DNA of 17,856 bases from Fulvivirga aurantia (GTDB lineage Bacteria; Bacteroidota; Bacteroidia; Cytophagales; Cyclobacteriaceae), in the NCBI RefSeq assembly GCF_009711475.1, contig NZ_SMMD01000919.1, positions 1-17,856 on the forward strand, given 5' to 3'. Under the pieces are notes generated by a model. That model searched no databases. It was given only the letters and a program-made list of their open reading frames with translations, and was not told the origin of the DNA. Each line of letters opens with the position of its first letter. Position 1 is the stretch's first letter. This document shows, piece after piece, positions 628-17,856 of the stretch. The translations under genes and the position numbers were made by a program.

Positions 628-693
628 ATCAATTTTACACGCTTCATCACCCTCCAGACGTGCTTATTCAATATAATATTTTATTTGGGATTA

Positions 694-3321: not shown

Positions 3322-3336
3322 AGGTTCTTTTCTTCT

Positions 3337-3360
3337 AAAATCAGTAAAAAAAGTGATTTT
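3337..3360 (+). terminator. Weak AT-rich hairpin after ruvC
   Basis: AAAATCA (3337-3343) and TGATTTT (3354-3360) form a 7-bp stem around a 10-nt loop between ruvC and the methyltransferase gene. The T-run is short and the stem is AT-rich, so it would be a weak terminator at most. The segment GATTTTTG at 3355-3362 also matches the -7 promoter box at five of six fixed positions, so a promoter role for the next gene is equally possible. Confidence 0.25.
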
Positions 3361-3368
3361 TGCAGGCG

Positions 3369-4136
3369 ATGGTAGATTACGAAAACAGATCATACGAGTC
3401 AGTTACTGACATTCGAAATAAAAACAAGGTCGATAAACTTTTTAAATTAATACCTGAAGATGTAAATACTGTAATTGACATCGGGTGTGGTAATGGGTTA
3501 ATCACCAACGAATTAGGCAAGCACTACGATGTTTTAGGTGTTGATATCAACGAATCAAAGTTAAAGTTTGTAGAAACGAATAAACTTAAATCGTCTTGTG
3601 ACAGCATACCTAAGCCTGACAAGTCTTTTGATATGGTCTTTTCCAGTGAAATGATCGAGCATCTTGATGACGATTTATTCAATCGCACCATGAACGAATT
3701 TGATAGGTTGTCAAAAAAATACATTCTAATCACCATCCCTAATAAGGAGCCTTTACACAAGCTGGTTGTGAAGTGTAAAAACTGCCATAAACTTTATCAT
3801 AAAAACGGTCATCTAAGAAGCTTTGATACCAATTCTGTTAAAAGCCTTCATCCCAACTGGGAGGTAATTACTACAGAAGAGTTTGGGGGAAATGTGAGAA
3901 ATTACCATAAAAGTCTGGCCTCACTTAAACATAAACTAACCCCTGCCGACTCGTGGATACCTAATTACTGGATTAAAAATCAGGGTGTCAATTATCATTT
4001 CTGTATTCATTGTATCCATAAAAACGAATTGAAGTATCGTTTTCATCCCATTTCATTTGCGCTTGATACTCTAAATATCATGACTACAGGCAAATCTAAA
4101 AGTCATTTACTGGCCTTATTTAAGAAGAGACAATAA
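3369..4136 (+). CDS. Class I SAM-dependent methyltransferase with cysteine-rich C-terminal half
   Basis: The 255-residue protein has a Rossmann methyltransferase domain. VIDIGCGNG (35-43) is the SAM-binding glycine motif, GVDI (57-60) ends in the acidic residue that normally binds the ribose, and SSEMIEHLDD (92-101) is motif II/III. The C-terminal part carries CKNC (136-139), several histidines, and CIHC (212-215), which could bind a metal. Such proteins in glycan clusters usually methylate a sugar or an associated lipid; the substrate is not visible. I chose ATG 3369 rather than TTG 3360, which would add only three residues. The next gene begins 2 bp after the stop, indicating an operon with the Wzx-like flippase. 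Confidence 0.8.
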   Translation: MVDYENRSYESVTDIRNKNKVDKLFKLIPEDVNTVIDIGCGNGLITNELGKHYDVLGVDINESKLKFVETNKLKSSCDSIPKPDKSFDMVFSSEMIEHLDDDLFNRTMNEFDRLSKKYILITIPNKEPLHKLVVKCKNCHKLYHKNGHLRSFDTNSVKSLHPNWEVITTEEFGGNVRNYHKSLASLKHKLTPADSWIPNYWIKNQGVNYHFCIHCIHKNELKYRFHPISFALDTLNIMTTGKSKSHLLALFKKRQ

Positions 4137-4138
4137 CA

Positions 4139-5599: not shown

Positions 5600-6776
5600 C
5601 GTAAAGGTTGATTAATTGCGCACTGGTGAGGTTCCAGTTCCATTTATTTGCCACAGCCTGCATGCCATTGCGACCCATTTCTTCAGCTGTCTCCGGATCA
5701 TCATAAATTGCTATAATTTTAGCTGCCAAGTCGTCTTCATCATCGGCCTGATGTACTAAACCACAGTTTTCTTGTTTAATCACATTGGCCTGAGCGGTAG
5801 AGTCGCTCACCACAACAGGTTTACCAACCGCCATGTATTGAAAGATTTTATTAGCAAAAGTAGTATCATGGTGTGCATTACGCTTCAATGGAGAAATACA
5901 AACCGATGCCGATTTTACATAAGAAGGAAAGAGAGAAACATCCTGCCACCCTTCCATGACTACACTTTCTTGCAAGCCCAATTCAGTAATCAAAGATCGT
6001 AATACTTCATCTTCCGAATTGTTATTACCCACTAATACTAGCTTTGCATTATCGATATGCTTTAAAATTTTAGGCATCGCTTTTATAGCTGTATCGGTTC
6101 CTCTCCTGAGGCCGGTATCTCCCAGGTACAGAATTATAAATTCGTCACGAAATCTATCAACTATTTTCTGATCAACTGGATACTCGTTGTATATTTCCGG
6201 ATGAATGGTATTAGGTACAACTATAATATCTTCTGAGGCTTTATTCTTATATTCTAACGAAGCCAGCTTAGCTTCTTCAGTTACAACCACGACTTTATCT
6301 GCCAGGCCAACGAACTCCTCTTGTTTTTTCTCCCATTTATCGGGACTGATGAGCAACCTGCCCTTCAGACTCTTTACATGGCCATAATGCCTCATTATTT
6401 CGGGTCGGTTTTCATGCAAATCTAAAACCAAGGGTAAACCTAGCTTTTTATTGACATCAAAAGCCGCCTGAGCAATAGCCATATCATGCACATGAATGAC
6501 TTCAATATCATGGTTGATCAAAAATTCTCTGATTTTAGGAGCCATTAATTTTTGATAGGCTGAAATAGTGTAGGCAAGTGCCGACAGTTTATACTCTAAT
6601 TTGTTTGACTTATAACGCCTAACCTGAATCCCATTAATGACCTCTTCGTCACTTGCCTCTCCGTAATGCAAGCAAAATAAAAATACTTCATGTCCTGCGT
6701 CAATAAGACTGATAGCCTCATTTTCTACCCTGGAATCGGGCGGAAATGTTTTATCTAAAATCATTCCTATACGCAT
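5580..6776 (-). CDS. Family 4-type (GT-B) glycosyltransferase
   Basis: The 398-residue protein has the two Rossmann halves of a GT-B enzyme. The N-terminal half begins MRIGMILDKTFPPDSRVENE and includes VIHVHDM and LVLDLHENRPE, typical of GT4 acceptor-side regions. The C-terminal half has ILYLGDTGLRRGTDTAIKA, where the donor phosphates are bound, and FANKIFQYMAVGKPVVVSD, the E-x7-E-like donor loop with Gln in place of the first Glu. It probably works in the cytoplasm on a lipid-linked glycan. It converges on the flippase gene with a 20-bp overlap and diverges from the sulfotransferase-like gene across a 59-bp gap. Sugar specificity is unknown. Confidence 0.88.
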   Translation of the reverse strand: MRIGMILDKTFPPDSRVENEAISLIDAGHEVFLFCLHYGEASDEEVINGIQVRRYKSNKLEYKLSALAYTISAYQKLMAPKIREFLINHDIEVIHVHDMAIAQAAFDVNKKLGLPLVLDLHENRPEIMRHYGHVKSLKGRLLISPDKWEKKQEEFVGLADKVVVVTEEAKLASLEYKNKASEDIIVVPNTIHPEIYNEYPVDQKIVDRFRDEFIILYLGDTGLRRGTDTAIKAMPKILKHIDNAKLVLVGNNNSEDEVLRSLITELGLQESVVMEGWQDVSLFPSYVKSASVCISPLKRNAHHDTTFANKIFQYMAVGKPVVVSDSTAQANVIKQENCGLVHQADDEDDLAAKIIAIYDDPETAEEMGRNGMQAVANKWNWNLTSAQLINLYATFSKG

Positions 6777-6793
6777 AAAACAGTAGTTAATTA

Positions 6794-6811
6794 GAAAATT
6801 ACCTTTATTTG
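6794..6811. promoter_or_regulatory. Divergent candidate -7 boxes between GT4 and sulfotransferase-like genes
   Basis: Reading leftward, TAATTTTC (6801-6794) matches TAnnTTTG at five of six fixed positions, 17 nt before the glycosyltransferase ATG. Reading rightward, TTTATTTG (6804-6811) matches at five of six, 24 nt before the ATG at 6836. Both are placed plausibly, but I could not find a clean TTG -33 for either. Confidence 0.35.
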
Positions 6812-6835
6812 CAGCTTGATCAAGCGGTAAAATAA

Positions 6836-7456
6836 ATGAATGTATTTGTATTAACCACAGGCAGGACGGGATCTTTAAGTTTTGAGCGGGCTTGTAGTCA
6901 TATCGAAAATTATACCGCAGCTCATGAGTCGAGATGCCAACTTCTTGGTGATGAGAGATTAAACTTTGCTGATAACCATATCGAGATAGACAATAGACTC
7001 TCCTGGTTTTTGGGAAGGCTGGGTGAAAAATATGGTGACAATGCTATTTATATTCACCTTCTTCGTGATGAGAAAAAAGTAGCTGCCAGCTATAAAAAAC
7101 GCTGGAATAGAGAAACTAGCATTGTAAGAGCTTATGCTTACGGTATCTTAAAGAATCAGGAGCACCACATTGATGATCCGTATAACATCTGCCTTGATTA
7201 TGCCGAAAATGTGAATACAAACATTCGCGATTTCCTGAAAGATAAATCTAAAACCATGACTTTCCATCTTGAGAATCTAGATAAAGATTTTAAGAAATTC
7301 TGGGAGCTAATCGATGCTAAAGGCAATTATGAAGCAGCACTCGAAGATTTTAAGTCAACCCATAATTATACCGGCTCTGACAGTAGCGATTACTCGCTTA
7401 TAAACAAAACCTTACGCGTAATTAAAAAACTACCCTCTTTTATAAGAAACGCCTAA
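6836..7456 (+). CDS. Sulfotransferase-like P-loop protein
   Basis: The 206-residue protein begins FVLTTGRTGSLSFERA. The TGRTGS turn (8-13) resembles the 5'-phosphosulfate-binding loop of PAPS-dependent sulfotransferases. HLLRDEKKVAASYKKRW (74-90), with Arg77, Ser85 and Arg89, resembles the 3'-phosphate-binding segment (R-D-P-x-S-x3-R). It is short for the family but covers the core. In this setting it could sulfate a glycan; that is inferred from context. The start is the first ATG and immediately precedes a hydrophobic beta strand as expected. Its final 17 bp overlap the end of the convergent aminotransferase gene. Confidence 0.68.
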   Translation: MNVFVLTTGRTGSLSFERACSHIENYTAAHESRCQLLGDERLNFADNHIEIDNRLSWFLGRLGEKYGDNAIYIHLLRDEKKVAASYKKRWNRETSIVRAYAYGILKNQEHHIDDPYNICLDYAENVNTNIRDFLKDKSKTMTFHLENLDKDFKKFWELIDAKGNYEAALEDFKSTHNYTGSDSSDYSLINKTLRVIKKLPSFIRNA

Positions 7457-8519
7457 CCTCCTCCACGAGCCGACTCACCTCTTCCTTACGAAGACCTGGA
7501 AAAAGAGGTATCGAAAGAATTTGGCTGGCTGCTTTTTCTGCACTTGGTAAATGCTCATTGGAATGATAGGCTTCAATTTGATGAATAGCCTTAGGGTAAT
7601 GAATGGCTGTAGCTATGCCTTTTTCACTTAAGTGTTCCTTAAGCGCATCCCTCCTGCTAGACATAATTGTAAATAGATGAAAAACCCGACTTTCATTAGA
7701 TGTAGGCAGTATTAAATCACAGTCTTTTAAACCTTCCAGATACTGATTGGCAAGTTGTGCACGTTCTGCATTCCATTGGTCCAGGTGTTTGAGTTTGAGC
7801 GACAAAACAGCGGCTTGTAATGTGTCTAATCGACTATTCCTTCCAACGGTCAGATGTTTATCTCTTACCTGTTGACCATGATCTGCTAGTAAGCGGATTT
7901 TGTCGCTTAAAGTATTGTCATTTGTAACTACAGCTCCTCCATCACCCAATGCACCAAGGTTTTTGGTTGGGTAAAAGCTAAAAGCCGAGGCATTACCAAA
8001 AGTACCTACCTTCTGTCCTTCTATGTGAGCCCCATGTGCCTGTGCACAGTCTTCGATTACTTTAATATCATGTTTTTTAGCCAAATGCATGATGGCCGGC
8101 ATGTCACAGGGGACGCCATACAGGTGTACAGCCATAATCACCTTTGTATTTATGTTGATCAGAGGCTCGATCATTTCTGCGGATATGTTGTATCCATGAG
8201 CCGGGAGGTCTGCAAAAACAGGCTTGGCTCCCACTCTAATCACGACTTCTGCATTACTCACCCAGGTAAAGGAAGGAATTATGACTTCATCACCCGGGCC
8301 AATTTCCATTGCTTCAAGTACCAATTCAAGGGCATCTGTACCATTGCCGCAGCTTATGCAGTGCCGAGCACCCAGATAAGCAGCAAACTCTTCTTCAAAT
8401 TGCTTCACTCTGGGCCCACCAACATACCATCCTTCCTCAACTACTTTTTGAGTAACTGCGTTTAACTCGTTCTGAATGTCTTGATGATGCCTTTTTAGTT
8501 CTAGAAATGGAATATTCAT
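7440..8519 (-). CDS. DegT/DnrJ/EryC1/StrS-family PLP-dependent sugar aminotransferase
   Basis: This 359-residue enzyme would add an amino group to a keto nucleotide sugar using PLP, normally with glutamate as donor. GNGTDALELVL (58-68) binds the cofactor phosphate, IEDCAQAHGA (155-164) has Asp157 for the pyridine nitrogen, and SFYPTKNLGALGDGGAV (181-197) places Lys186 as the Schiff-base lysine. DHGQ, GRNSRLD and HLFTI are further family blocks. Similarity by eye is to the group making 3-amino-3,6-dideoxy sugars or related 4-amino sugars, but regiospecificity cannot be assigned. Its ATG overlaps the upstream glycosyltransferase stop by 4 bp (ATGA), so the two are translationally coupled. Confidence 0.92.
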   Translation of the reverse strand: MNIPFLELKRHHQDIQNELNAVTQKVVEEGWYVGGPRVKQFEEEFAAYLGARHCISCGNGTDALELVLEAMEIGPGDEVIIPSFTWVSNAEVVIRVGAKPVFADLPAHGYNISAEMIEPLININTKVIMAVHLYGVPCDMPAIMHLAKKHDIKVIEDCAQAHGAHIEGQKVGTFGNASAFSFYPTKNLGALGDGGAVVTNDNTLSDKIRLLADHGQQVRDKHLTVGRNSRLDTLQAAVLSLKLKHLDQWNAERAQLANQYLEGLKDCDLILPTSNESRVFHLFTIMSSRRDALKEHLSEKGIATAIHYPKAIHQIEAYHSNEHLPSAEKAASQILSIPLFPGLRKEEVSRLVEEVRRFL

Positions 8520-9784
8520 GATCTCTCTAATACCTTGACTAATTTCTCTGTAAGGTTTCTTCTGGTAAAATCACTGATGTCAGCATCAGCGTTTTTATTT
8601 CCGCTCTCATACTCATTCTGAAGTTTGAGGAGTGCTTTCTCAATCCCTGTTATATCATTTTCAGCTACTGCAACCCCCGCCCCTGTCTGGTTGATGATTT
8701 GGGCTGTATCACCAGATAGATCTCCCAACGATAATATAGGGCGCTGTGCAGCCAGGTATTCAAAGATTTTGCCCGGTATATTTCCTTTGGAATTGGCAGC
8801 ATTCATAGGTAAACTCAAAAGCACAGCCGACTCTCGGTATAACCTTAAAACTTCACTATGTGGCACATATGGCTTGAAGCTCACCAGTTTTTTAAGCTCA
8901 ACATCTGCCTTCACCTCTTCCTTTAAAGCCTCGTTTACGTTTCCGACAAACTCAAGCGGACAATCAATACCTTTTTGAGCAAGACTTTTAATAGCAGAAA
9001 GCACAGGTCGCGGATTACGCTGCTCATCAACCACACCAATATGCCGTATTATAAAGCTCTCCGGTTCTGTTTTTTCCTGGCTTTTAAATTCTTCATCGTC
9101 AAAGCCATTGGTAATCACATCAATATCTTTACCTGCCAGCTTTTTAAGCCCCTCAGCATAAAACTTACTTACGGTCACGATTTCATCTGCTTGCTGCAGA
9201 ACCTTTTGCTCCAACTTTTGATGTCGGCTCCAGGCTAACTTAGACATGTGAAAACTTTCTAATAAACCCCATTGTGTCCAAGGGTCTCTGAAGTCGGCCA
9301 CCCATTTTATATCTAACTTCTTTTTTAATTTAAGACCGATCAGGTGCATGCTGTGAGGCGGGCCGGTGGTGACTATCACATCGATGCCGTTTGAGGAAAT
9401 GAGATCTTCGAGCACTTTTGCGGCCGGTTTAACCCAAAATCTGCGTGGGTCGGGTATAAAAAGATTACCTCTGATCCATAATAAGGCATTAGCCAACAAT
9501 CCCTTTTTCTTTTTCTTTACCAGATCACTCTGCTGATTGCCTTTACCTTTAAATTTATTGATCAGACCATAAGGCTCCCATATAGGCAGTTTGTAAACCT
9601 CCACCTCCTTGGGTATATCATTTACAAGGCTTTGATCTTTTACTTCAAAGGATGGGTTTTCTGGTGTGAATACGTATGGCTGCCAACCAAACTGTGGTAG
9701 GTATTTAGCAAATTTAAGCCAGCGTTGTACGCCACTTCCGCCACTTGGAGGCCAGTAATAAGTTATGATCAGCACCTTCTTCAT
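8516..9784 (-). CDS. GT4-type glycosyltransferase
   Basis: The 422-residue GT-B protein opens with MKKVLIITYYWPPSGGSGVQ, the loop typical of a group common in Bacteroidota. Next come FIPDPRRFWVKPA, VTTGPPHSMHLIG and WVADFRDPWTQWG. The donor half includes VTVSKFYAEGL, VITNGFDDEEF and NIPGKIFEYLAAQRPILSLG, whose FEYLA supplies the donor-binding Glu. It probably extends a lipid-linked glycan at the inner membrane. It is coupled by a 4-bp overlap to the sugar aminotransferase, hinting that it may transfer the amino sugar made by its partner. A perfect TAnnTTTG box lies only 7 nt before its start. Confidence 0.88.
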   Translation of the reverse strand: MKKVLIITYYWPPSGGSGVQRWLKFAKYLPQFGWQPYVFTPENPSFEVKDQSLVNDIPKEVEVYKLPIWEPYGLINKFKGKGNQQSDLVKKKKKGLLANALLWIRGNLFIPDPRRFWVKPAAKVLEDLISSNGIDVIVTTGPPHSMHLIGLKLKKKLDIKWVADFRDPWTQWGLLESFHMSKLAWSRHQKLEQKVLQQADEIVTVSKFYAEGLKKLAGKDIDVITNGFDDEEFKSQEKTEPESFIIRHIGVVDEQRNPRPVLSAIKSLAQKGIDCPLEFVGNVNEALKEEVKADVELKKLVSFKPYVPHSEVLRLYRESAVLLSLPMNAANSKGNIPGKIFEYLAAQRPILSLGDLSGDTAQIINQTGAGVAVAENDITGIEKALLKLQNEYESGNKNADADISDFTRRNLTEKLVKVLERS

Positions 9785-9791
9785 GTGGTCA

Positions 9792-9799
9792 CAAATATA
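9792..9799 (-). promoter_or_regulatory. Perfect Bacteroidota -7 box before the GT4/aminotransferase pair
   Basis: Reading leftward, TATATTTG matches TAnnTTTG at every fixed position. Only 7 nt separate it from the ATG at 9784, so the transcript would be leaderless or nearly so. No good TTG -33 is seen about 19-21 nt upstream. Confidence 0.5.
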
Positions 9800-9840
9800 G
9801 AATAATCAATGTGTAATGAATTTTGTAAAGGAAGGAAGTT

Positions 9841-10503
9841 CTATTTATAGTGGTAAAACCTGGCCAAATATTTAGTATTTACACCTATATAATAAAGGCT
9901 GACCAAAGCAACATTCAGAAACTGCTGTCTGAGCACGCCATTCTTTACAAATCGCCTCGAAGAAGATATTATTGGCGTATTCAATTTCACAAAAGAACCT
10001 CTTCTTTTGATTCGCCTTACCATATCAATATCCTCCATAATTGGGATTTCTCTAAAGCCATTAAGTTTTTCAAAAACCGTCCTTTTTATAAATAAACCCT
10101 GATCACCATATGTGAAAACAGAAAAATTAAGCTTACTCATAGTAGAGTAAAAGCCTAATAACCTGTTTTTATAATCAAATGATAAGTAAAAACTACCGGC
10201 ATCATAAGTTTTTAATACACGAGGTATTTGTGCAAAATCGGCCTGAGATACATTACTATCGGCATGTAGAAAAAGTAAAACTTCATGTTTCGCCTTTTTG
10301 GCACCAAAATTCATCTGTCTCGCTCTCCCCATTTTACTTTCGTAAAAATCCACATCATGTTTACGCGCTATTTTTTGTGTATCATCTTCACTACCACCAT
10401 CCACCACGATTATTTGCCCAACTACGTCTTCTCGGATCAATATTGGAAGAAGTTTTTTTAAGTTGGATGACTCGTTAAGCGCAGGAATAATTACTGAAAT
10501 CAT
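9841..10503 (-). CDS. GT2 glycosyltransferase of the TIGR04283 type
   Basis: The 220-residue GT-A protein begins MISVIIPALNESSNLKKLLP. It has VVDGGSEDDT (33-42), GRARQMNFGA (59-68), LFLHADS (77-83, in place of a DXD), YGDQGLFIK (132-140) and PIMEDIDMVRRIKRRG (154-169). This order is the signature I associate with TIGR04283, named for arsenosugar biosynthesis. The usual TIGR04282/DUF2064 partner is not in the window, so an arsenosugar role is doubtful and a surface-glycan role may fit better. The C-terminus has a short hydrophobic stretch (about 190-206). It lies 56 bp upstream of the next minus-strand glycosyltransferase, which seems to have its own promoter box. Confidence 0.85.
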   Translation of the reverse strand: MISVIIPALNESSNLKKLLPILIREDVVGQIIVVDGGSEDDTQKIARKHDVDFYESKMGRARQMNFGAKKAKHEVLLFLHADSNVSQADFAQIPRVLKTYDAGSFYLSFDYKNRLLGFYSTMSKLNFSVFTYGDQGLFIKRTVFEKLNGFREIPIMEDIDMVRRIKRRGSFVKLNTPIISSSRRFVKNGVLRQQFLNVALVSLYYIGVNTKYLARFYHYK

Positions 10504-10665
10504 TTATTTAAAAGTGCCGATGCAACCATTTGTTCAAATCGTGAGTCTTAGTGATGTGTGTTCTAATGCGGACAGTTAAAAAGTCCATAATCGATCACAT
10601 TTAAGCAAAAATATGGGTTTTATAACGATAAAAAGCAATGGCACAGACATTGTAAAATAAACGAC
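10504..10665. other. 162-bp divergent intergenic region
   Basis: This gap separates the leftward GT2 gene from the rightward small membrane protein gene. I see no perfect TAnnTTTG box in either direction. ATTTG-TT-CAAAT at 10528-10539 is a short perfect palindrome that could be an operator half-pair. Nothing else stands out. Confidence 0.4.
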
Positions 10666-10854
10666 ATGCCTCGGTATCTCGACAAACGAACCATAACCAT
10701 TATTCTGGGAATTATAGTTGCAGCACTAATCATCTTTAGTACCAGCTCATATGCTATATCCTACCCTGATTTATCAGGTTTTGAGCCCCAACCAGTAGAA
10801 ATAAAAATCACCAATATACTCCACCAACTTAAAACCAAACTTCCACTACTATGA
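10666..10854 (+). CDS. Small single-pass membrane protein, coupled to DUF4097-like gene
   Basis: This 62-residue protein has a basic N-terminus (MPRYLDKRT), one strongly hydrophobic segment (about residues 10-29, ending FSTSSYA) and a polar tail with a basic, Leu-rich end. The segment could be a membrane anchor or an uncleaved signal. Its stop overlaps the next gene's start by 4 bp (ATGA at 10851-10854), which supports real translation and coupling. I do not recognise a family. A role assisting export or assembly of the downstream secreted protein is a guess. Confidence 0.6.
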   Translation: MPRYLDKRTITIILGIIVAALIIFSTSSYAISYPDLSGFEPQPVEIKITNILHQLKTKLPLL

Positions 10855-11708
10855 AATCTTTGGCCTACTCAATGATCGCTTTGCTTTTTCCATTTGTGCT
10901 ACAAGCACAGGATGAATATAAGCTTAACAAGGAATACGAAATAAACCTCAATGGCACACTTAGCTTAAATACCAACGATGCCAATGTAAAAATTACAGGA
11001 AGCAACCGAAGTAATGTAGCGCTGAAAGTTTACAGAAAGATCACTACAAAAGGCGTCTCTTGGGGAGACAAGAGTTTTTCTATAGAAGTAGAACAGAAAA
11101 ATGGTAATCTGGATATCTATGAAAAATCAGAAGGGTCACACTTTAGTGTAGCTGGCTACGTGCGTGAAGAGTACACCATAGATATTGACGTACCTCTGGG
11201 CATTAGTCTCGATATTAATGGGGATGATGATGATTACCTGATTAATAATATCAAAGGGTCTATTGCCCTAAAATTGGATGATGGAGATGTGGAGTTAAAT
11301 AACTGTGGTGGTTCATCTTTTGATTTTAATGCGGATGATGCCGATATCTCTATGAGAGGAGGCTCCGGGTCTATTAAAATAAGGCAGGATGAAGGTGAGG
11401 TAAATATTAAGAATGCTGCCTTTTCAGAAATTGATGCCACCATGGATGATGGCGATATGGTCATCGAGACAAGTTTGGCCAGTGATGGTTCTTATTATTT
11501 TAAGGCCGATGATGGCGATATTGTATTGAGTGTACTTAGTGGCGGTGGCAATTTTTTGATCGATCATGATGACTCAAGGCTCTATACCTCTGGCAACTTT
11601 ACCATGATGAAGAAAGACGATAATCACACCGAACTCAAGTTAGGTGATGGGTCGGCCTTAGTGAAAATTCGGGTTGACGATGCTTCTATCAGAATAAACA
11701 GCAACTAA
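10851..11708 (+). CDS. Secreted DUF4097-like beta-repeat protein with DDGD motifs
   Basis: The 285-residue protein starts with a signal peptide, MKSLAYSMIALLFPFVLQA, probably cut after Ala19. The mature part resembles the DUF4097/adhesin-like beta-helix families: short strands separated by turns. From about residue 140 an acidic turn recurs every 18-21 residues: DDGD (143), DDAD (162), DEGE (180), DDGD (199), DDGD (220), DHDD (238) and DDAS (276). This pattern fits stacked turns of a beta-solenoid with an aligned acidic ladder, which might bind cations; that is inference. Only one cysteine is present in the mature chain (Cys152). Location is likely periplasm or outer surface. It ends 3 bp from a convergent gene. 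Confidence 0.75.
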   Translation: MKSLAYSMIALLFPFVLQAQDEYKLNKEYEINLNGTLSLNTNDANVKITGSNRSNVALKVYRKITTKGVSWGDKSFSIEVEQKNGNLDIYEKSEGSHFSVAGYVREEYTIDIDVPLGISLDINGDDDDYLINNIKGSIALKLDDGDVELNNCGGSSFDFNADDADISMRGGSGSIKIRQDEGEVNIKNAAFSEIDATMDDGDMVIETSLASDGSYYFKADDGDIVLSVLSGGGNFLIDHDDSRLYTSGNFTMMKKDDNHTELKLGDGSALVKIRVDDASIRINSN

Positions 11709-11724
11709 TCTTTAGTTGACCTGT
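11698..11724. terminator. Hairpin covering both stop codons of convergent genes
   Basis: CAACTAA (11702-11708) and TTAGTTG (11712-11718) form a perfect 7-bp stem with a 3-nt loop. ACAG (11698-11701) and CTGT (11721-11724) can extend it across a 2-nt bulge. Both TAA stops lie inside the stem. No T-run follows on either strand, so termination, if any, would be weak. Confidence 0.45.
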
Positions 11725-12218
11725 GAGTCGAAGGGCTTTTTGTGAATGATAATTTCTCTCTCCTCGCCATTGAGTTGCAAATCGCCCACATACTTTTGAG
11801 GGGTAGGCCTATTTAGCGATAAGACGAGCAATAGAAACATATAGCCTACTATAAATACTGAAGACGTGGTAAGGTAAAGGCCCACAATCATTAAAATACT
11901 ACCCCCCTCAATAAATGACCAAAACACCAACGAACTGGTGAAATAGGCTTTTAATTTCTTTTGAAAATCATCTATTGTCCTGGCGTTTTTAAGGTTACGC
12001 TTATGCAAATAATAACCAATCGCCAAATCTGCAACGCTGATAGCCACCAATAAAATAATGATTACCTTATCATCGATACCGGTATCTAAAGCCGGTGAGA
12101 AAGCTCTGTTTTTAATTTCTAAAAACAAGTAAATAAAAACGGCTAAAGGCACTGCCAGCATGGCGTGAAATATAAAGCCTAACTTGTTGTGAAAATCTTC
12201 GGGACTTTTGAATTGCAT
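11712..12218 (-). CDS. Four-helix integral membrane protein of unknown function
   Basis: I do not recognise this 168-residue protein. It has four hydrophobic segments: roughly residues 17-34, 49-67, 90-112 and 113-134, numbered from the ATG at 12218. A basic loop (HKRNLKNARTIDDFQKKLKA) lies between helices 2 and 3. The tail is soluble and polar (about 35 residues, ending DSQVN). The start at 12218 gives MQFKSPEDF, a normal amphipathic lead-in; an ATG at 12233 would add five residues. It diverges from the TetR-family gene across a 63-bp gap and converges on the DUF4097-like gene 3 bp away. No link to phenylacetate metabolism is evident. Confidence 0.7.
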   Translation of the reverse strand: MQFKSPEDFHNKLGFIFHAMLAVPLAVFIYLFLEIKNRAFSPALDTGIDDKVIIILLVAISVADLAIGYYLHKRNLKNARTIDDFQKKLKAYFTSSLVFWSFIEGGSILMIVGLYLTTSSVFIVGYMFLLLVLSLNRPTPQKYVGDLQLNGEEREIIIHKKPFDSQVN

Positions 12219-12269
12219 ATATTGGTACGTCAAAACTAAGAAATTACTTTATCCGAAAACAATTATCAT

Positions 12270-12277
12270 TATTTTTG
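12270..12277 (+). promoter_or_regulatory. Perfect Bacteroidota -7 box before the TetR-family gene
   Basis: TATTTTTG matches TAnnTTTG at every fixed position and ends 4 nt before the ATG at 12282. A weak TTTA at 12248-12251 lies 18 nt upstream as a possible -33. The expected transcription start falls on or just after the start codon, suggesting a leaderless mRNA or an additional promoter further upstream. Confidence 0.5.
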
Positions 12278-12281
12278 TAAG

Positions 12282-12866
12282 ATGGTGGGTGTAGAAAACA
12301 TAAGCAGAAAAGAGCAGGTGATAAGAACTGCCGCAGAGCTTTTTAAAGATAAAGGCTACGTGGCTACCTCTATGCGCGATCTTGCCCAGGCCCTGGGTAT
12401 AGAAGCAGCCAGCTTATATTCTCACATAAAATCGAAAGAAGAAATACTACAAAGCCTGTGTTTCGAGATGGCTGAGCTCTTTAGAGACTCTCTCAGTGGT
12501 GTAGAAGAAGCAGATATCTCCTTTAGCGAGAAGCTAAGAAAGGGAATTCTTGGTCATATTGAAGTGATGGCCAAAGACCTTACGGCATCAGCAGTGTTTA
12601 TGAATGAGCACCGACACCTAAGTGCCGATCATTTAAAAAGATTTCTATTACTGAGAATAAATTATATCAATCGGTTTAAAAAAATTATAGAGGGCGGCAT
12701 CAGCGCTGGTGAGTTCAGACCATTAGACACTAAATTGGCCGTGATGACCCTTTTCTCATCATTAAACTGGATGCCCAATTGGTACGATCCCTCAGGGATT
12801 ATTAACCCCATAGAGCTGGGAAATCAGTTGGCCGATATGTTGATTGAGGGCTTGAAAACTAAATAA
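12282..12866 (+). CDS. TetR/AcrR-family transcriptional regulator, likely paa regulator
   Basis: The 194-residue protein has the TetR N-terminal DNA-binding domain: RKEQVIRTAAELFKDKGY (9-26), then TSMRDLAQALGIEAASLYSHIKSKEEIL (29-56), where the ALGIEAASLYSH part is the recognition helix-turn-helix. The C-terminal ligand-binding part is all-helical and ends in a typical amphipathic helix. It sits 43 bp before paaA on the same strand. TetR-type regulators (PaaR) respond to phenylacetyl-CoA in several bacteria, so control of this paa cluster is the likeliest role, as inference from position. A palindrome between this gene and paaA is a candidate operator. I leave the symbol blank because sequence alone does not show the ligand. 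Confidence 0.88.
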   Translation: MVGVENISRKEQVIRTAAELFKDKGYVATSMRDLAQALGIEAASLYSHIKSKEEILQSLCFEMAELFRDSLSGVEEADISFSEKLRKGILGHIEVMAKDLTASAVFMNEHRHLSADHLKRFLLLRINYINRFKKIIEGGISAGEFRPLDTKLAVMTLFSSLNWMPNWYDPSGIINPIELGNQLADMLIEGLKTK

Positions 12867-12873
12867 GTGATCA

Positions 12874-12899
12874 TTTTGTTGTAAACTTGAATAACAAAA
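12874..12899. promoter_or_regulatory. Candidate operator upstream of paaA
   Basis: TTTTGTT (12874-12880) and AACAAAA (12893-12899) are perfect inverted arms around a 12-nt spacer; the 13-nt half-sites match at 9 of 13 positions. The left arm overlaps TCATTTTG (12871-12878), a -7-like box matching five of six fixed positions, about 31 nt before the paaA start. Binding here would block transcription. A TTG at 12852 is spaced 16 nt, shorter than usual. Confidence 0.4.
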
Positions 12900-12909
12900 A
12901 TCAAGATAT

Positions 12910-13896
12910 ATGTACGGAGGAGGAAATACTTTTGAGTCAGCTAAATTTGAAGGTCTTGAAAACGAAGATCCTCAAAAACTAGCTGAGTTTGAAGCGCGCA
13001 TCGAGCGTGGAGAAAAAATCGAACCTAGTGATTGGATGCCTAAGCTGTATCGCAAGCAACTTATCAGAATGATAGAGCAGCATGCGCACAGTGAAATCAT
13101 CGGAGCTTTACCTGAGGGTACATGGATAACCAGAGCACCTGGCTTTAAAAGAAAGTTGGCACTTATGGCCAAAGTTCAGGATGAGGTAGGTCACGCACAG
13201 TTGTTATACAGTGCGGCTGAAACCTTGGGCAAACCTCGTGAAGCAATGATCGATGACCTAATCACCGGTAAATCAAAATACTCCAACATATTTAATTACC
13301 CTGCTTTTACATGGGCAGACTCATGCTTCATCAGTTGGTTGGTAGATGCTGGCGCTATTGTAAACCAGTTGGCCAATGCACGCGGAAGCTACGGCCCTTA
13401 TTGCCGAGCTTTAGATAGAATTTGTGCAGAAGAGTCTTTCCACCTAAAATATGGACACCATTGTGTGATACACATGGCTACAGGTTCTGAAAAGCAGAGA
13501 GAAATGATGCAGGCTGCCATTAACAGGTGGTGGGGACCAATGATGCACTTTTTCGGACCACCAGATAAAGTTTCTGTACATACAGAAGTGTTGATGAAGT
13601 GGAAAGTAAAAATGGCGAGTAATGATGACTGCAGAAATCAATTCCTCGACATGTACGTGCCTAAAATCTGGGAGCTTGGTTTAACCATTCCAGATCCTAA
13701 TTTGAAGAAAAACGAAGACACCGGCCGTTGGGAATACACCGAGCCGGATTGGGAAGAATTTAAGCGTGTAATTAACGGTGACGGACCTTGCAACAAAGAG
13801 AGACTTGCCGTAAGAAGAACTGCCGAAGAGCGTGGCGCATGGGTGAGAAAAGCCCTACTTGCACCGAAGACAGAGTATGTCGCTCCATTAGCTTAA
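12910..13896 (+). CDS. paaA: Phenylacetyl-CoA 1,2-epoxidase catalytic subunit PaaA
   Basis: PaaA is the diiron oxygenase subunit that inserts one oxygen atom into the ring of phenylacetyl-CoA, giving the 1,2-epoxide. The 328-residue protein has a ferritin-like four-helix fold. [13 protein letters not shown] (57-69) supplies a first Glu ligand, DEVGHAQ (91-97) is an ExxH pair, and [12 protein letters not shown] (172-183) is the second. [30 protein letters not shown] and [15 protein letters not shown] are all strong family blocks. Its length is close to the usual 310-330. It lacks a clear ribosome binding site, as is normal in the phylum. A strong terminator follows it, so it may be transcribed apart from paaBC. 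Confidence 0.97.
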
Positions 13897-13926
13897 TATT
13901 TCTCAATTTTCAAGATCATATAAAAG

Positions 13927-13960
13927 AAAGGATCGCACTTAATAATGCGATCTTTTTTTT
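13927..13960 (+). terminator. Strong intrinsic terminator after paaA
   Basis: GATCGCA (13931-13937) pairs with TGCGATC (13946-13952) around an 8-nt loop. AAAG upstream extends the stem against the eight-T tract at 13953-13960. It is 30-60 bp after the paaA stop and would end paaA transcripts before paaB. Confidence 0.88.
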
Positions 13961-13980
13961 GGCCTGCCAAAAGGTGCATC

Positions 13981-13996
13981 TGCTATTCTTATAGCA
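13981..13996. repeat. Short stem-loop in paaA-paaB gap
   Basis: TGCTAT (13981-13986) and ATAGCA (13991-13996) form a 6-bp stem with a TCTT loop. It is followed by A residues, not T residues, on the plus strand, so it is not a terminator in the paa direction. Function unknown. Confidence 0.35.
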
Positions 13997-14009
13997 AAAA
14001 AATGATCTA

Positions 14010-14025
14010 ATGCATTCGATTGCAT
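14010..14025. promoter_or_regulatory. 16-bp palindrome, candidate operator before paaB
   Basis: ATGCATTC (14010-14017) faces GATTGCAT (14018-14025); the half-sites agree at 7 of 8 positions. It overlaps the TTG (14020-14022) that serves as the candidate -33 element of the paaB promoter, a natural place for repression. It does not resemble the palindrome before paaA. Confidence 0.4.
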
Positions 14026-14050
14026 AACCATCAATAAAATGACATCTTTG
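14020..14050 (+). promoter_or_regulatory. Candidate paaBC promoter
   Basis: TTG at 14020-14022, a 20-nt spacer, then CATCTTTG at 14043-14050 (five of six fixed positions of TAnnTTTG). The spacing fits Bacteroidota promoters. GACATC/GGTGTC (14041-14046 and 14053-14058) form an inverted pair around the -7 box with one wobble. The leader to paaB would be about 76 nt. Confidence 0.5.
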
Positions 14051-14074
14051 CAGGTGTCAATTTTTACCTGATAT

Positions 14075-14103
14075 AAGGTCTTAGCTTACGCTAAGGCTTT
14101 TTT
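14075..14103 (+). terminator. Terminator-like hairpin in the paaB leader (possible attenuator)
   Basis: AAGGTCTTAGC (14075-14085) pairs with GCTAAGGCTTT (14090-14100) around a TTAC loop: 11 bp with two G-U pairs, running into six T residues (14098-14103). It ends 29 bp before the paaB ATG, downstream of the only promoter-like pair I see. It would stop paaBC transcripts unless read-through is regulated, or it ends a very short RNA. Confidence 0.7.
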
Positions 14104-14132
14104 AACAAATAGAAAGTCGCAAGAATTTATAC

Positions 14133-14744
14133 ATGGAATCATTAGACCCTAGAGTATCACGACTGAATATTGATGAGAACGCCTCGTTATCACCAAAGGC
14201 ACCACTCGATCAGTTCGGAACATTTGAAGTTTTTGTACAGCTCAAAGAAGGCAAGCAATACAAGCATGAGGGCGCAGTACATGCCCCTAACAGAGATATG
14301 GCTTTTATTTTTGCCAAAGAGCAATTTAGTCGCAGACTTATGTGCAGCGGTCTTTTTGTAGTAGATACGCGCAATGTTTTCGTTACTGAATATACCGAAG
14401 ACACGGTAAATGTATATGAAAAAGTAGCCGACAATGCCGATGCGCAAGGCGAGGCTCAGGAGTTTGAGTTTTTTCACCTTATGAAAAGAGGTAAGCAGCA
14501 TGAGCATATTGGTAGCATAGAAGCCCAGAGTGCCGAGCAGGCACTGGTCATGGCTAAATCTGAGTTTATCAATAGCGATAAACCGATATATAATGTATGG
14601 GTAGTAAAAACTAATGATATTTTATTTTCATCAGAGGAAGACAAGGTGATTTGGAATACGCTTCCGGAAAAGAAATTTAGAGATGCCATAGCATATAAAG
14701 CCGCAGACAAGGTAAAGGCGTTTAAAATAAGACAGCATAAATAA
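14133..14744 (+). CDS. paaB: Phenylacetyl-CoA epoxidase subunit PaaB with two tandem PaaB domains
   Basis: PaaB bridges PaaA-PaaC heterodimers in the epoxidase. Family members such as E. coli PaaB are about 95 residues; this one is 203. Domain 1 starts at Phe31 (FEVFVQLKEGKQYKHEGAVH) and domain 2 at Phe111 (FEFFHLMKRGKQHEHIGSIE). The spacing is exactly 80 residues, and 14 of the first 35 positions are identical by my alignment. Domain 1 keeps the SRR segment of the E. coli protein (residues 66-68), while domain 2 keeps VWVVKTNDI (155-163) and the C-terminal extension. The halves therefore look specialised. An acidic linker (about 91-110) joins them. The 30-residue N-terminal tail is polar. 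The stop overlaps the paaC start by one base (TAATG). Confidence 0.9.
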   Translation: MESLDPRVSRLNIDENASLSPKAPLDQFGTFEVFVQLKEGKQYKHEGAVHAPNRDMAFIFAKEQFSRRLMCSGLFVVDTRNVFVTEYTEDTVNVYEKVADNADAQGEAQEFEFFHLMKRGKQHEHIGSIEAQSAEQALVMAKSEFINSDKPIYNVWVVKTNDILFSSEEDKVIWNTLPEKKFRDAIAYKAADKVKAFKIRQHK

Positions 14745-15493
14745 TGAACCAGACAGCACTAAAAGAATTACTATATAAGATCGCTGACGATCAGTTGATA
14801 TTAGGCCATAGAAACTCTGAGTGGACAGGCATGGGCCCATTGCTGGAAGAAGATATCGCTTTTTCTTCTATGGCACAGGATAAAGTAGGCCAAAGCCATG
14901 CAATCTACCAGATACTGCATGAGATAGGCGAAGGTGAGCCAGATCAGGTAGCATTTATGCGCAATGCTGAGCAATTTCATAACTGCCAGATGGTGGAGCT
15001 ACCCAATGGAGAGTACGACTTCAGCCTGATGCGTCATTTCTTATACGATACCGCTGAGGCGATCAGATTTGATATGCTCACGAAATCATCTTATGAGCCA
15101 CTTGCTCTGCTAGCAAAAAAAATACAAGGCGAGTTACGCTACCACACCATGCATGCCAAAACATGGATAAAACAATTAGGTACAGCAACAGAAGAAAGTA
15201 AAAGTAGGCTACAAACCAGTTTTAATGAGCTTTTTCCTTATGCTTTGGGCATGTTTGAGCAATCTCCTTACGAAAACGACATCATCGCTGACGGTATCTT
15301 TCCTGGGGAAGAAGCGCTGAAAGAAAAATGGATGGCTCGTGTTGAGGAAATAATAGGCCAGACTGATTTAAAGATGCCAGAAGTATCTGAAGCGAAATTA
15401 GGTGGCAGAAAAGGTGAACACACTGAATACCTCCAACCGTTACTTGATGAAATGTCAGAAGTTTTCAAAATCGACCCTACCGCTGACTGGTAA
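14744..15493 (+). CDS. paaC: Phenylacetyl-CoA epoxidase structural subunit PaaC
   Basis: PaaC is the ferritin-like partner that forms the core heterodimer with PaaA but is not the catalytic diiron site. At 249 residues it has the usual length. ADDQLILGHRNSEWTGMGP (14-32), then LLEEDIAFSSMAQDKVGQ (33-50), FLYDTAEAIRFDML and GELRYHTMHAKTWIKQLG are family blocks in the expected order. The C-terminus, HTEYLQPLLDEMSEVFKIDP, is also typical. The ATG overlaps the paaB stop by one base, so synthesis is coupled to PaaB and the two should be made in fixed ratio. Confidence 0.96.
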   Translation: MNQTALKELLYKIADDQLILGHRNSEWTGMGPLLEEDIAFSSMAQDKVGQSHAIYQILHEIGEGEPDQVAFMRNAEQFHNCQMVELPNGEYDFSLMRHFLYDTAEAIRFDMLTKSSYEPLALLAKKIQGELRYHTMHAKTWIKQLGTATEESKSRLQTSFNELFPYALGMFEQSPYENDIIADGIFPGEEALKEKWMARVEEIIGQTDLKMPEVSEAKLGGRKGEHTEYLQPLLDEMSEVFKIDPTADW

Positions 15494-15502
15494 TACGATT
15501 TG

Positions 15503-15542
15503 GGATTTTAGATTTAAGAAGTGGAATTTTAGATTTTAGAAG
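15503..15542 (+). repeat. Imperfect tandem repeat between paaC and paaD
   Basis: Two units of about 20 bp, GGATTTTAGATTTAAGAAGT and GGAATTTTAGATTTTAGAAG, sit side by side in the 112-bp paaC-paaD gap. They differ by small insertions and substitutions. No clear promoter is seen here, so paaD may be read from the paaBC transcript. Confidence 0.6.
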
Positions 15543-15605
15543 GAAGCGTCAAGGAACTAACCTATCGCTAATTTGTTTTAATAAGTGAATTAAGCCTTTG
15601 CAAAA

Positions 15606-16094
15606 TTGAATGAAGTAATAAATAAAGAGCAGGTACTTGATTGGCTGGATGAAGTGAAAGATCCTGAGATACCTGTAATTTCTCTGATAGATTTAGGAGT
15701 AATCACCAATGTTGACATAACTGATAATAAGGTAACTGTTGACATGACTCCCACATTTGTGGGCTGCCCTGCCATGGACTACATGAAGCAGGACGTGGTT
15801 GACGTACTTACCAAGCATGGTGTAGATAATGTGGAAGTAAACATCAGCTTTAAAGAATCGTGGAACTCCAATAAGATCACCGATAAAGGCAGAAAGGCAC
15901 TTCATGATTTTGGCCTCGCCCCTCCCCCAAAGCACAACCTACAGGTAGATATCGATATACTTGAGCATGTGGAATGCCCTAATTGTGGCAGCGACAACAC
16001 CATACTTAAAACCCCTTTCGGCCCTACAGCCTGCCGCTCTATACACCACTGCGACAGCTGCCACGAGACGTTTGAGCAGTTTAAGCCTTTGTAA
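15606..16094 (+). CDS. paaD: Phenylacetyl-CoA epoxidase assembly factor PaaD
   Basis: PaaD is thought to help build the iron-sulfur centre of the PaaE reductase. The 162-residue protein has an N-terminal MIP18/DUF59 domain: VKDPEIPVISLIDLGVI (17-33) and TPTFVGCPAMDYM (48-60), with the conserved Cys54. A zinc-ribbon tail follows: CPNC (124-127), Cys143, and CDSC (149-152). The start is a TTG; an in-frame TAA at 15591-15593 leaves no ATG option. Finding PaaD without PaaE next to it implies that a reductase gene lies elsewhere in the genome. Confidence 0.93.
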   Translation: MNEVINKEQVLDWLDEVKDPEIPVISLIDLGVITNVDITDNKVTVDMTPTFVGCPAMDYMKQDVVDVLTKHGVDNVEVNISFKESWNSNKITDKGRKALHDFGLAPPPKHNLQVDIDILEHVECPNCGSDNTILKTPFGPTACRSIHHCDSCHETFEQFKPL

Positions 16095-16097
16095 AGC

Positions 16098-16212
16098 GTA
16101 CAACCGGATTTACAAAACCTTTGTAAGATTTAATTTTAGCTGCAATTTCTTACTTTTGGATTGAATTTTAAGTTATATCAAACACTCGGTGTAGTTTAGC
16201 CGATTGTTGGGC
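16098..16212 (+). other. Speculative attC-like segment between paaD and accessory genes
   Basis: GTACAAC (16098-16104) matches the integron R'' consensus RYYYAAC at 6 of 7 positions. GTTGGGC (16206-16212) matches GTTRRRY at all 7. They lie 115 bp apart, within the size range of attC sites, and CAACCGG near the left end can pair with CCG-ATT-GTTG near the right. No integrase gene is in the window, and the L boxes are not clear. Confidence 0.2.
16110..16126 (+). terminator. Weak terminator-like hairpin after paaD
   Basis: TTACAAA (16110-16116) and TTTGTAA (16120-16126) form a perfect 7-bp stem with an ACC loop, 16 bp after the paaD stop. The following GATTTAATTTT is T-rich but interrupted. It could end the paa transcript weakly. 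Confidence 0.45.
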
Positions 16213-16224
16213 TCAATTACTCGC

Positions 16225-16734
16225 ATGTCGCAAGAGAACATATCAAACACCGTGCTTATAGACAACCTCTACGATTCTGCAGGTGAGCATTTGAGGAACA
16301 CTGTAACGGACTGGACGAACCACGAACTATGGAGTGATGCTGTAGATGAATTGGATGCCAACGAACGTGCAGTGTATCTAATTGGAGTACTCAACCAACA
16401 AGTAATGAACGGAGGTTTCATCCAATATTTCGACAACTCATATGGGATGTTTGGTTATGAAACTCTGAGAGTCCTGCGAACAGTTGGAGCTGTAAATTCG
16501 GCTAACTTATTGGAACTAGCCCTTAAGATTGTTAACCGCGAACAACTAACACCAGATCAATTCTCAAAGTACATTGCGACCAACATCGTAGCAGATGAAC
16601 TTGGTGACGAACTTGATCAACTAGATGAACAATACTACAAACTTGAGAACACGGAATACCTAGAAGAACTTCTAGCGAACTGGATAAAAACTGAGCCCAA
16701 CAAGCGTTGGCAAGCATACAAGAGCAAGACCTAA
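16225..16734 (+). CDS. DMP19/DUF4375-family protein
   Basis: The 169-residue protein is all-helical and soluble. It contains VMNGGFIQYFDNSYGMFGYE (60-79), then RVLRTVGAVNSANLLELALK, which is the hallmark of the DMP19 (DUF4375) family. The family is named after a DNA-mimic protein of Neisseria; most members have no known function, so DNA mimicry should not be assumed here. The C-terminal half is acidic (DELGDELDQLDEQYYKLE, 124-141). I chose ATG 16225; an earlier TTG at 16204 would run through the GTTGGGC motif. Its stop overlaps the lipoprotein start by one base (TAATG). Confidence 0.8.
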   Translation: MSQENISNTVLIDNLYDSAGEHLRNTVTDWTNHELWSDAVDELDANERAVYLIGVLNQQVMNGGFIQYFDNSYGMFGYETLRVLRTVGAVNSANLLELALKIVNREQLTPDQFSKYIATNIVADELGDELDQLDEQYYKLENTEYLEELLANWIKTEPNKRWQAYKSKT

Positions 16735-17639
16735 TGAATAAAATAACTCTCCTTCTCTTCTTTTTGACTATTGTTTCATGTAACTCAAAATCAAATAATG
16801 ACTCTGAATCTAATAAGCCGAAATGGAAACAAGTCAGAACTGAGTCAATTCAATATATACCACAACAAGGTGACCTAACTAAAATTCTGATTTCAACATT
16901 TGATACAGGAGGTGAGCTCGTTACCGACACTACTATAATTTATCAAGCTTTCAAGGACACCCTCCTAATTGAAGAAATTAAGTTTAATTTATTTATGGGT
17001 GACACCACGAAATGGCGACATCGAGTTATGCAATATGATATAAACGGCAATAAAATACATGAGATAGATTCAGTGAATGGTACATTAAGAGGCAAGTATT
17101 CATACTATTTTGAAAAAGGTCTTCTTACCAAATCGAACACATTAGGTCTAATTCCACAGTTAGAGGTTGTAAATGGACAAATGAAAACAAATGGGTTTGA
17201 TACCATTCAATTTGAACGATTTGAATATTACGATTCGGGTATTAACCATAAAACCATAACAGTCGAAGAAAATAAATTAAAATCGAAGCTCACTCAGAAT
17301 GTTTCTTTTGATACAACATACACTTTTCACGAATACGATGGTTCGAACCGACTTCAACGAAGTATTTCTGTCGTGGATTCGGACACAACTTCCATTTCAG
17401 TTTTTGAATACGATGAATCAGGTAATGAAATCAAATTTATTCTCGCCACCGAATCGGATGGTTTTCATATAATACAATCTAAATTTGATGAACTGAATAA
17501 CAAAGTATCCGAAACCTTTCAAGATGATGTAATGACTCAGCGAACTGAATTCATTTATGAAAACAATGGAAGAGTTATTCAAAGGAAAATTTATGAACTA
17601 GATACGCTTGCCAACGTGATGAATGATCGCATGCGCTAA
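16734..17639 (+). CDS. Lipoprotein with YD-like repeats, coupled to DMP19 gene
   Basis: The 301-residue protein begins MNKITLLLFFLTIVSC, a short lipoprotein signal with lipobox IVSC and Cys16 as the lipidated residue. A polar Ser/Asn-rich tether follows (17-30). The rest resembles short YD-type repeats: YDINGNKIHE (101), YDSGINHK (166), YDGSNRLQR (201), YDESGNEIK (226), FDELNNKVSE (251) and YENNGRVIQR (275). The last four are 24-25 residues apart. Such beta-hairpin repeats occur in RHS/MORN-like surface proteins; here they lack a toxin core. I chose the ATG at 16734, since an upstream start at 16707 would bury the signal peptide. Function unknown; likely on the outer membrane or periplasmic face. 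Confidence 0.78.
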   Translation: MNKITLLLFFLTIVSCNSKSNNDSESNKPKWKQVRTESIQYIPQQGDLTKILISTFDTGGELVTDTTIIYQAFKDTLLIEEIKFNLFMGDTTKWRHRVMQYDINGNKIHEIDSVNGTLRGKYSYYFEKGLLTKSNTLGLIPQLEVVNGQMKTNGFDTIQFERFEYYDSGINHKTITVEENKLKSKLTQNVSFDTTYTFHEYDGSNRLQRSISVVDSDTTSISVFEYDESGNEIKFILATESDGFHIIQSKFDELNNKVSETFQDDVMTQRTEFIYENNGRVIQRKIYELDTLANVMNDRMR

Positions 17640-17650
17640 AGTGCTGTTCA

Positions 17651-17671
17651 GGTCGGTTCGTGCGAAGGACC
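17651..17671 (+). repeat. Hairpin just after the lipoprotein gene
   Basis: GGTC (17651-17654) pairs with GACC (17668-17671), and TTCG (17657-17660) with CGAA (17663-17666), separated by a small internal loop. It begins 11 bp after the stop. No T-run follows, so it is a weak terminator candidate or part of the structured tail. Confidence 0.4.
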
Positions 17672-17675
17672 GCTC

Positions 17676-17815
17676 TTCTGTGTTTAGAGCTTACTCCTAT
17701 TTCGGTAGTTCTTCCTTGAGCTTCTGGTAGCTTTTCAGGCTCACTCAAGTTCGGCCAGGCTGTGAAGAGAATGTGCTTTGCCTTGGGTCGGTGCTATTTG
17801 AACATAAACACAGAA
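17676..17815. repeat. 140-bp non-coding segment bounded by an 11-bp perfect inverted repeat
   Basis: TTCTGTGTTTA (17676-17686) and TAAACACAGAA (17805-17815) are exact reverse complements. Inside lie CTTGAG/CTCAAG (17715-17720 and 17744-17749) and a repeated GGTAG-TTCTTC-like unit. The base composition looks richer in G and C than the neighbouring genes. I see no open reading frame worth calling. It could be a MITE-like or recombination element, or a structured RNA; the window ends 41 bp later. Confidence 0.5.
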
Positions 17816-17856
17816 TTACTCATACACACAATTCATGCCGCACAACCCCTCGTGAA

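Follow-up and report, generated by a model that had tools for sequence, protein, structure and literature searches.

What becomes of a subunit that works as a dimer once two copies of it are joined in one chain? The question is raised by a gene for a protein of 203 residues in a stretch of 17,856 nucleotides from Fulvivirga aurantia (contig NZ_SMMD01000919.1, positions 1 to 17,856; referred to here as the window). The closest known system is PaaB, the bridging subunit of 1,2-phenylacetyl-CoA epoxidase (PF06243, TIGR02157; PDB entries 3EGR and 4IIT). In the Klebsiella complex, PaaB holds PaaA and PaaC in a cleft (available portions of PMC4498308 and PMC9493321). The hexamer arises via dimerisation of PaaB, which thereby bridges two PaaA-PaaC pairs (same portion of PMC4498308), and the yield of epoxidase product falls more than 100-fold without PaaB (same portion of PMC9493321). 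The solved forms of PaaB have 95 and 96 residues, in line with the figure of about 95 given for the family in an earlier note on this DNA, and the Klebsiella form dimerises; the window protein, in comparison, has two domains, with the conserved features divided between them.

In the window protein a PaaB dimer has been joined up as a single chain, with two PaaB domains encoded in one frame of a paa operon. Such a tandem fusion had been proposed in the earlier note, and the profiles bear it out. PF06243 matches in two stretches with 101.2 bits (cut-off 27), and each half alone exceeds the Pfam cut-off in the scan of the genome, with 51.9 and 49.4 bits. TIGR02157 also matches in two stretches, with 87.1 bits for both halves summed against a cut-off of 85.45. 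The position and length of the gene, and the placement of the two domains at Phe31 and Phe111, had been given correctly. The protein has the PaaB fold, and an unrelated fold for the second half is rejected by the matches to both profiles and by the AlphaFold model, in which a helix (residues 54–65) lies between His50 and Arg67. A Foldseek search of the PDB with this model finds no entry under an E value of 0.001; 3egr_A is matched at 0.033, with a probability of 1.00. For the Htur_1727 rSAM-partnered family (TIGR04031) the protein stays below the cut-off, scoring 32.7 against 57.2.

The gene lies between paaA and paaC, and the profile matches in the window give the order TetR regulator, paaA, paaB, paaC and paaD (Table 1). 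No other PF06243 locus was found in the genome, where PaaA and PaaC are likewise represented once each, within the window. An assembly or frame artefact was considered and rejected. The gene is one open frame with no stop between the halves. Among the best 120 of 1534 homologues (the window's own included), 119 have 191–238 residues and one has 181, and residues 3–197 of the window protein at minimum are encoded by all 80 record-titled tandem loci, so an artefact is unlikely. These 80 loci were kept for comparison out of 141 confirmed places, and some are cut by contig ends; matches were found nearby to the regulator in 70, to paaA in 77, to paaC in 79 and to paaD in 68.

Table 1. Positions in the window of the tandem paaB gene, its parts and the neighbouring genes.
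Feature	Positions	Strand	Basis or remark
TetR-family regulator, possibly PaaR (name by analogy)	12282..12866	+	Profile match
paaA, catalytic subunit	12910..13896	+	Profile matches
paaB, tandem PaaB, 203 residues	14133..14744	+	ORF translation; PF06243 and TIGR02157 profiles
N-terminal motif SLDPRVSRL, residues 3–11	14139..14165	+	Common to single-domain PaaB of other Bacteroidota
PaaB domain 1, without tail	14214..14399	+	PF06243 positions 2–63
His50 (VHA) of domain 1	14280..14282	+	Invariant across 120 aligned homologues
Arg67-Arg68 of domain 1	14331..14336	+	Kept in domain 1
PaaB domain 2, with most of tail	14457..14714	+	PF06243 positions 3–88
C-terminal tail, domain 2 only	14634..14741	+	Alignment
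paaC, structural subunit	14744..15493	+	Profile matches
paaD	15606..16094	+	Profile matches

Single-domain PaaB carries two near-invariant sets of residues, a core patch (the His of the VHA motif and an Arg pair, RR, at the helix ends) and a C-terminal tail. The ordinary format, one domain of about 95 residues with patch and tail together, is not that of the 203-residue window protein, where these features are split. The earlier note had correctly placed the SRR segment in domain 1 (residues 66–68) and the VWVVK segment (155–159) and C-terminal extension in domain 2. The counterpart of His50 in domain 2 is Glu130 (14520–14522), and those of Arg67-Arg68 are Asn147-Ser148 (14571–14576). Domain 2 retains the fold, Trp156, Arg119-Gly120-Gln122-His123 and the tail, of which Trp174, Lys180, Phe182, Arg183 and Tyr188 are invariant across the 120 aligned homologues. 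The SLDPRVSRL motif is not repeated ahead of domain 2.

Tandem PaaB occurs beyond Bacteroidota, in Deinococcota and haloarchaea. A search of plasmids with a single PaaB (60 records listed of 170) gave a 197-residue tandem between paaA and paaC in Deinococcus psychrotolerans. A search with this protein gave a second Deinococcus tandem, the two being the only ones among 157 records covered to at least 80%. A protein search found 522 proteins; 118 of the 120 listed have 175–230 residues, and those named are from Deinococcus, Meiothermus, Calidithermus, Deinobacterium or Thermaceae. When plasmids were searched with the window protein, the 18 records met included three haloarchaeal tandems, two from Halorubrum (174 residues each) and one from Natrinema. 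The protein search with a haloarchaeal query found 340 proteins. The 120 listed, with two added, comprise 56 tandem (at least 165 residues), 64 single (fewer than 125 residues) and two between, and all named proteins of this listing are haloarchaeal. The Deinococcota and haloarchaeal tandems resemble the window protein in having two domains, the same division of patch and tail and, at the loci read, paaA and paaC as flanks, and differ from it in lacking the SLDPR motif. Domain 2 is very diverged in Deinococcota, and the tails of the haloarchaeal tandems match those of haloarchaeal singles. PaaB therefore has a two-domain form too, one that is loosely named in the records ('phenylacetic acid degradation protein', 'PacF protein'). 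No report of a tandem or duplicated PaaB was found in titles and abstract openings, a survey in which most subscription papers lie outside coverage, nor is one mentioned in the available portions of PMC4498308, PMC9493321, PMC13186573, PMC2653477 and PMC6651687.

The division of residues was compared in two alignments. The main one holds 135 Cytophagales tandems (120 best-listed and 15 from loci), 57 tandems of the Deinococcota set, and as singles 25 proteins of the SLDPR type (described below), 5 from other Bacteroidota and 51 canonical or reference proteins; the 56 tandem and 64 single proteins of the haloarchaeal set were aligned separately. The patterns for splitting the domains were widened, as narrower ones missed 36 of the 135 Cytophagales and 83 of the 118 Deinococcota proteins. 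Five of these 118 remained unsplit and do not enter the alignment, for which one protein in two was taken from the other 113. Two proteins of the Deinococcota search (129 and 147 residues) and two of the haloarchaeal search (145 and 148 residues) were left out by length.

Counts are given here as domain 1/domain 2, that is, the number of proteins with the single-domain residue in that half. In Cytophagales (n = 135), the VHA His and both Arg residues of the patch are each found in 135/0 and the Ser of the N-terminal motif in 132/0, while the tail gives 6/135 for Lys, 1/135 for Arg and 0/135 for the second Tyr. In the Deinococcota set (n = 57), His and both Arg residues are each at 57/0, and in the tail Lys is at 4/57, Tyr at 2/56 and the second Tyr at 0/57. 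The haloarchaeal set (n = 56) has 56/0 for each of the three patch residues, with tail Lys at 1/56, Tyr at 0/56, Arg at 3/56 and the second Tyr at 0/56. Single-domain proteins nearly always keep both sets of residues. His, both Arg residues and tail Lys, Tyr and Arg are each present in all 64 haloarchaeal singles and in 50 or 51 of the 51 canonical and reference singles. The SLDPR-type singles (n = 25) have His in 24 and both Arg residues, tail Lys and tail Arg in 25 each. Of the 5 other Bacteroidota singles, 3 have the tail Lys and 2 have the second Tyr. As judged from these alignments, domain 1 of the tandem has the patch without the tail and domain 2 the tail without the patch, alike in all three sets. 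This is the complementary loss of conserved residues expected of a fused pseudo-dimer with one composite site, and we infer that the residues lost and kept are those of a site.

How often the fusion took place was addressed with trees of PaaC, PaaA and the separate domains, the last based on 73 to 95 columns. Single-domain PaaB of a distinct class in other Bacteroidota (L148, L150–L154 and L170–L188) starts with the SLDPR motif; those listed score about 69–101 bits with the Pfam PaaB profile, versus 119–152 for the canonical Bacteroidota hits read. All 25 aligned have the motif (SIDPR in one), RR and the tail in one domain, 24 with VHA and one with VRA. In the Cytophagales tandems, the SLDPR motif is in domain 1 (132/135) and the [FY]R[DE][AV] tail is in domain 2 (133/135, and in no domain 1). 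In the PaaC tree, the Cytophagales tandems form one clade (97/93) beside the SLDPR singles (jointly 100/100), and a joint clade with the Deinococcota tandems (two rows) is rejected (p 7.9e-12). The PaaA tree unites the tandems with the SLDPR singles (100/98) and joins Deinococcota to the canonical class (100/98). Two changes are needed here for the Cytophagales tandem group, as the single form L151 is inside it on a weak branch.

The domain trees reject one shared fusion for the haloarchaeal and Cytophagales tandems. In the second-domain tree with haloarchaea, from which the His and RR columns were dropped, the haloarchaeal second domains are with haloarchaeal singles (100/100) and the Cytophagales ones with SLDPR singles (99/97), and clades of all second domains or of Cytophagales and haloarchaea are rejected (p 0.0008 for each). 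In the first-domain tree with haloarchaea, three groupings are rejected: all first domains as one clade (p 9e-9), a clade of Cytophagales and haloarchaea (p 0.0007) and one of Deinococcota and haloarchaea (p 0.02). Cytophagales first domains are with SLDPR singles in another tree (99/91); in the first-domain tree with haloarchaea, this clade is off the best tree and not rejected (p 0.46). That PaaB was fused separately in haloarchaea and in Cytophagales is thus a firm reading of the trees. The Deinococcota fusion is probably separate as well: PaaC and domain 1 (p 0.026) reject a joint origin, and domain 2 opposes this, so separate origins are favoured and the matter is left open.

Several results weigh against full separation. 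One domain tree unites the second domains of Cytophagales with those of Deinococcota (99/100), perhaps due to shared losses and long branches, and in another, with the loss columns dropped, their clade stays unrejected (p 0.54). The three cases may for this reason not be fully independent. In the first of these two trees, a clade of all four domains of Cytophagales and Deinococcota is not rejected (p 0.38), and a clade that pairs domains 1 and 2 within a group is neither found nor rejected (p 0.27 for Cytophagales, 0.32 for Deinococcota).

In the mechanism that we favour, the patch of one subunit of ordinary PaaB would work in trans with the tail of the partner subunit. After fusion, the tail of the first copy would have been lost, and the patch of the second copy, then useless, would have decayed. 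With such cooperation in trans, the tandem would hold one complete docking site, and it would probably bind a single PaaA-PaaC pair where Klebsiella PaaB bridges two. If patch and tail worked in cis, domain 2 should be intact and domain 1 degraded; the opposite is seen in all three groups, which is why the trans reading is favoured. Taken as a whole, the reading of the window protein as a fused dimer in which the one patch and the one tail probably make up one docking site from both halves is in our judgement an even call. The wider proposal is more tentative and less likely than not: at least three PaaB dimer fusions (Cytophagales, Deinococcota and haloarchaea), each with a first half that keeps the patch and a second half that keeps the tail, would point to a docking site in trans in ordinary PaaB and to a one-sided, one-pair epoxidase in the tandem organisms. 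Nature has parted patch from tail in both bacteria and archaea, an experiment that hints at their pairing and at the workings of ordinary PaaB, and with tandem PaaB the stoichiometry of this key enzyme of aromatic ring breakdown can be tested directly.

Double-hotdog hydratases and monomeric herpesvirus dUTPases are examples of fused pseudo-dimers or pseudo-trimers in which a single composite site is retained. As in tandem PaaB, fusion of an oligomer is followed there by loss of redundant site residues; the sites of those enzymes are catalytic and known from structures, whereas tandem PaaB is a scaffold subunit known from its sequence.

There are points on the other side. If patch and tail are independent and the tail is fixed at the C-terminus, the patch would be kept in domain 1 three times with a chance of 1/8, so the argument for action in trans is modest. 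The HxH residues and the core Trp follow no common rule across the aligned sets: for the initial His of HxH, the counts are 1/135 in first versus 134/135 in second domains of Cytophagales and 47/57 versus 0/57 in the Deinococcota set, and for the core Trp they are 14/135 versus 135/135 in Cytophagales, 56/57 versus 42/57 in the Deinococcota set and 53/56 versus 56/56 in the haloarchaeal set. Moreover, the first tail Tyr is present in just 11/135 Cytophagales second domains (consensus Phe), and the tail Arg in 6/57 of the Deinococcota set (Lys in the sequences read).

The main rival, and the reading of the earlier note, is an unequal bridge with two unlike faces. One tandem PaaB would join two PaaA-PaaC pairs, gripping one with the domain 1 patch and the second with domain 2 and the tail. 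Klebsiella PaaB does bridge two pairs (available portion of PMC4498308), and domain 2 keeps its fold and the residues listed above. On the other hand, this domain lacks in all three sets residues that are near-invariant in single PaaB, and with one PaaA and one PaaC in the genome the same partner surface would need to be held in two different ways. The losses fit a pseudo-dimer with a single docking site made from both halves at least as well, and we regard the unequal bridge as unlikely, though worth serious thought.

The tail may instead bind another partner, such as the reductase, with one reductase per complex and the patch alone binding PaaA-PaaC. This is compatible with the single-site pseudo-dimer that we favour, and we consider it rather improbable. 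It would agree with the composition A2B3-4C2E1 reported for the canonical complex, with one PaaE (available portion of PMC4498308), and with the crystal structures, as the PaaB chains of both entries matched are modelled for residues 3–65 or 4–65 only and their tails are unmodelled. However, no reductase match was found in the flank examined of 53 of the 57 long tandem loci (L027–L106, over 8 kilobases), the other 4 having partial matches at the edge. Nor was one found in the flanks of the Deinococcus, Halorubrum, Natrinema and Haloferax loci. Loss of PaaE as the cause of the fusion was rejected, as the reductase is also absent near the haloarchaeal single L142; because of this locus, the absence may go with the class of PaaC and not with the fusion. 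A paaE-type reductase gene adjoins paaABCD in all five canonical plasmid loci; the loci compared, apart from L027–L106, were L139–L145, L168 and L190–L192. The genome of the window has a PaaE-like frame elsewhere (contig C81, 4197–5222), with 287 bits, under the cut-off of 420.8.

Less probable again is the absence of any functional asymmetry, where fusion simply cost copy 1 its tail and copy 2 its start, the remaining losses are drift and the assembly is much as before. The fusion itself can indeed account for the missing first tail and second N-terminus, but His and RR lie in the interior of domain 2 and are near-invariant in singles, and their presence in 0/135, 0/57 and 0/56 second versus 135/135, 57/57 and 56/56 first domains is too clean for drift. 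Very improbable is a tandem ancestor, from which the SLDPR singles would derive through an in-frame deletion that brought domain 1 and the tail of domain 2 together: such a deletion would yield exactly their form, and they may be a sister group since their single clade is unrejected in the PaaC tree (p 0.53), but the sampled outgroup classes are single-domain except Deinococcota, and haloarchaeal second domains lie inside singles (starred branches force two changes in the second-domain tree and one in the first-domain tree).

Within Bacteroidota, the distribution was examined in three overlapping samples. In the phylum sample (395 genomes), 128 have PaaB. Eight of them are in the order of the window, with 7 tandem and 1 single, and none of the 120 outside it is tandem by number of hits; in one of these (G200) there are two hits, both short and on different contigs. 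The lineage-wide pattern across Bacteroidota that the earlier note had looked for is therefore rejected. Among 58 relatives, 30 have PaaB, 27 with two hits and 3 with one. In the order sample (390 genomes), 121 have PaaB, 65 with at least two hits and 56 with one. One of these 56 (G452) is a weak hit, and the others score like canonical PaaB, with at least 135 bits. The five order singles placed in the tree (L015, L016, L017, L107 and L130) carry canonical-class PaaC. In view of these scores and the PaaC class, whole paa clusters seem to have been exchanged. The tandem loci bear the titles Fulvivirga, Roseivirga, Ohtaekwangia, Chryseolinea, Cesiribacter and other Cytophagales-type names, together with unspecific Bacteroidetes or Flammeovirgaceae bins and one bin titled Bacteroides.

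The 236 bases that separate paaA from paaB contain two terminator-like hairpins (13931–13952 and 14040–14059). Although the score of the first refers to the minus strand, its plus strand likewise runs into T; the stretch has 5 such hairpins versus 3.1 expected. Those in the gap could set paaB expression separately from that of paaA, or be due to chance. Upstream, positions 694–10503 hold glycosyltransferases, an aminotransferase and a polysaccharide-synthesis gene, with ruvC in between, which suggests a surface polysaccharide locus. In a Rhodococcus ruber plasmid (L193, 2327–4570), two PaaA/PaaC-family genes flank a short divergent PaaB, in a cluster that includes an iron-sulfur assembly protein and an acyl-CoA ligase.
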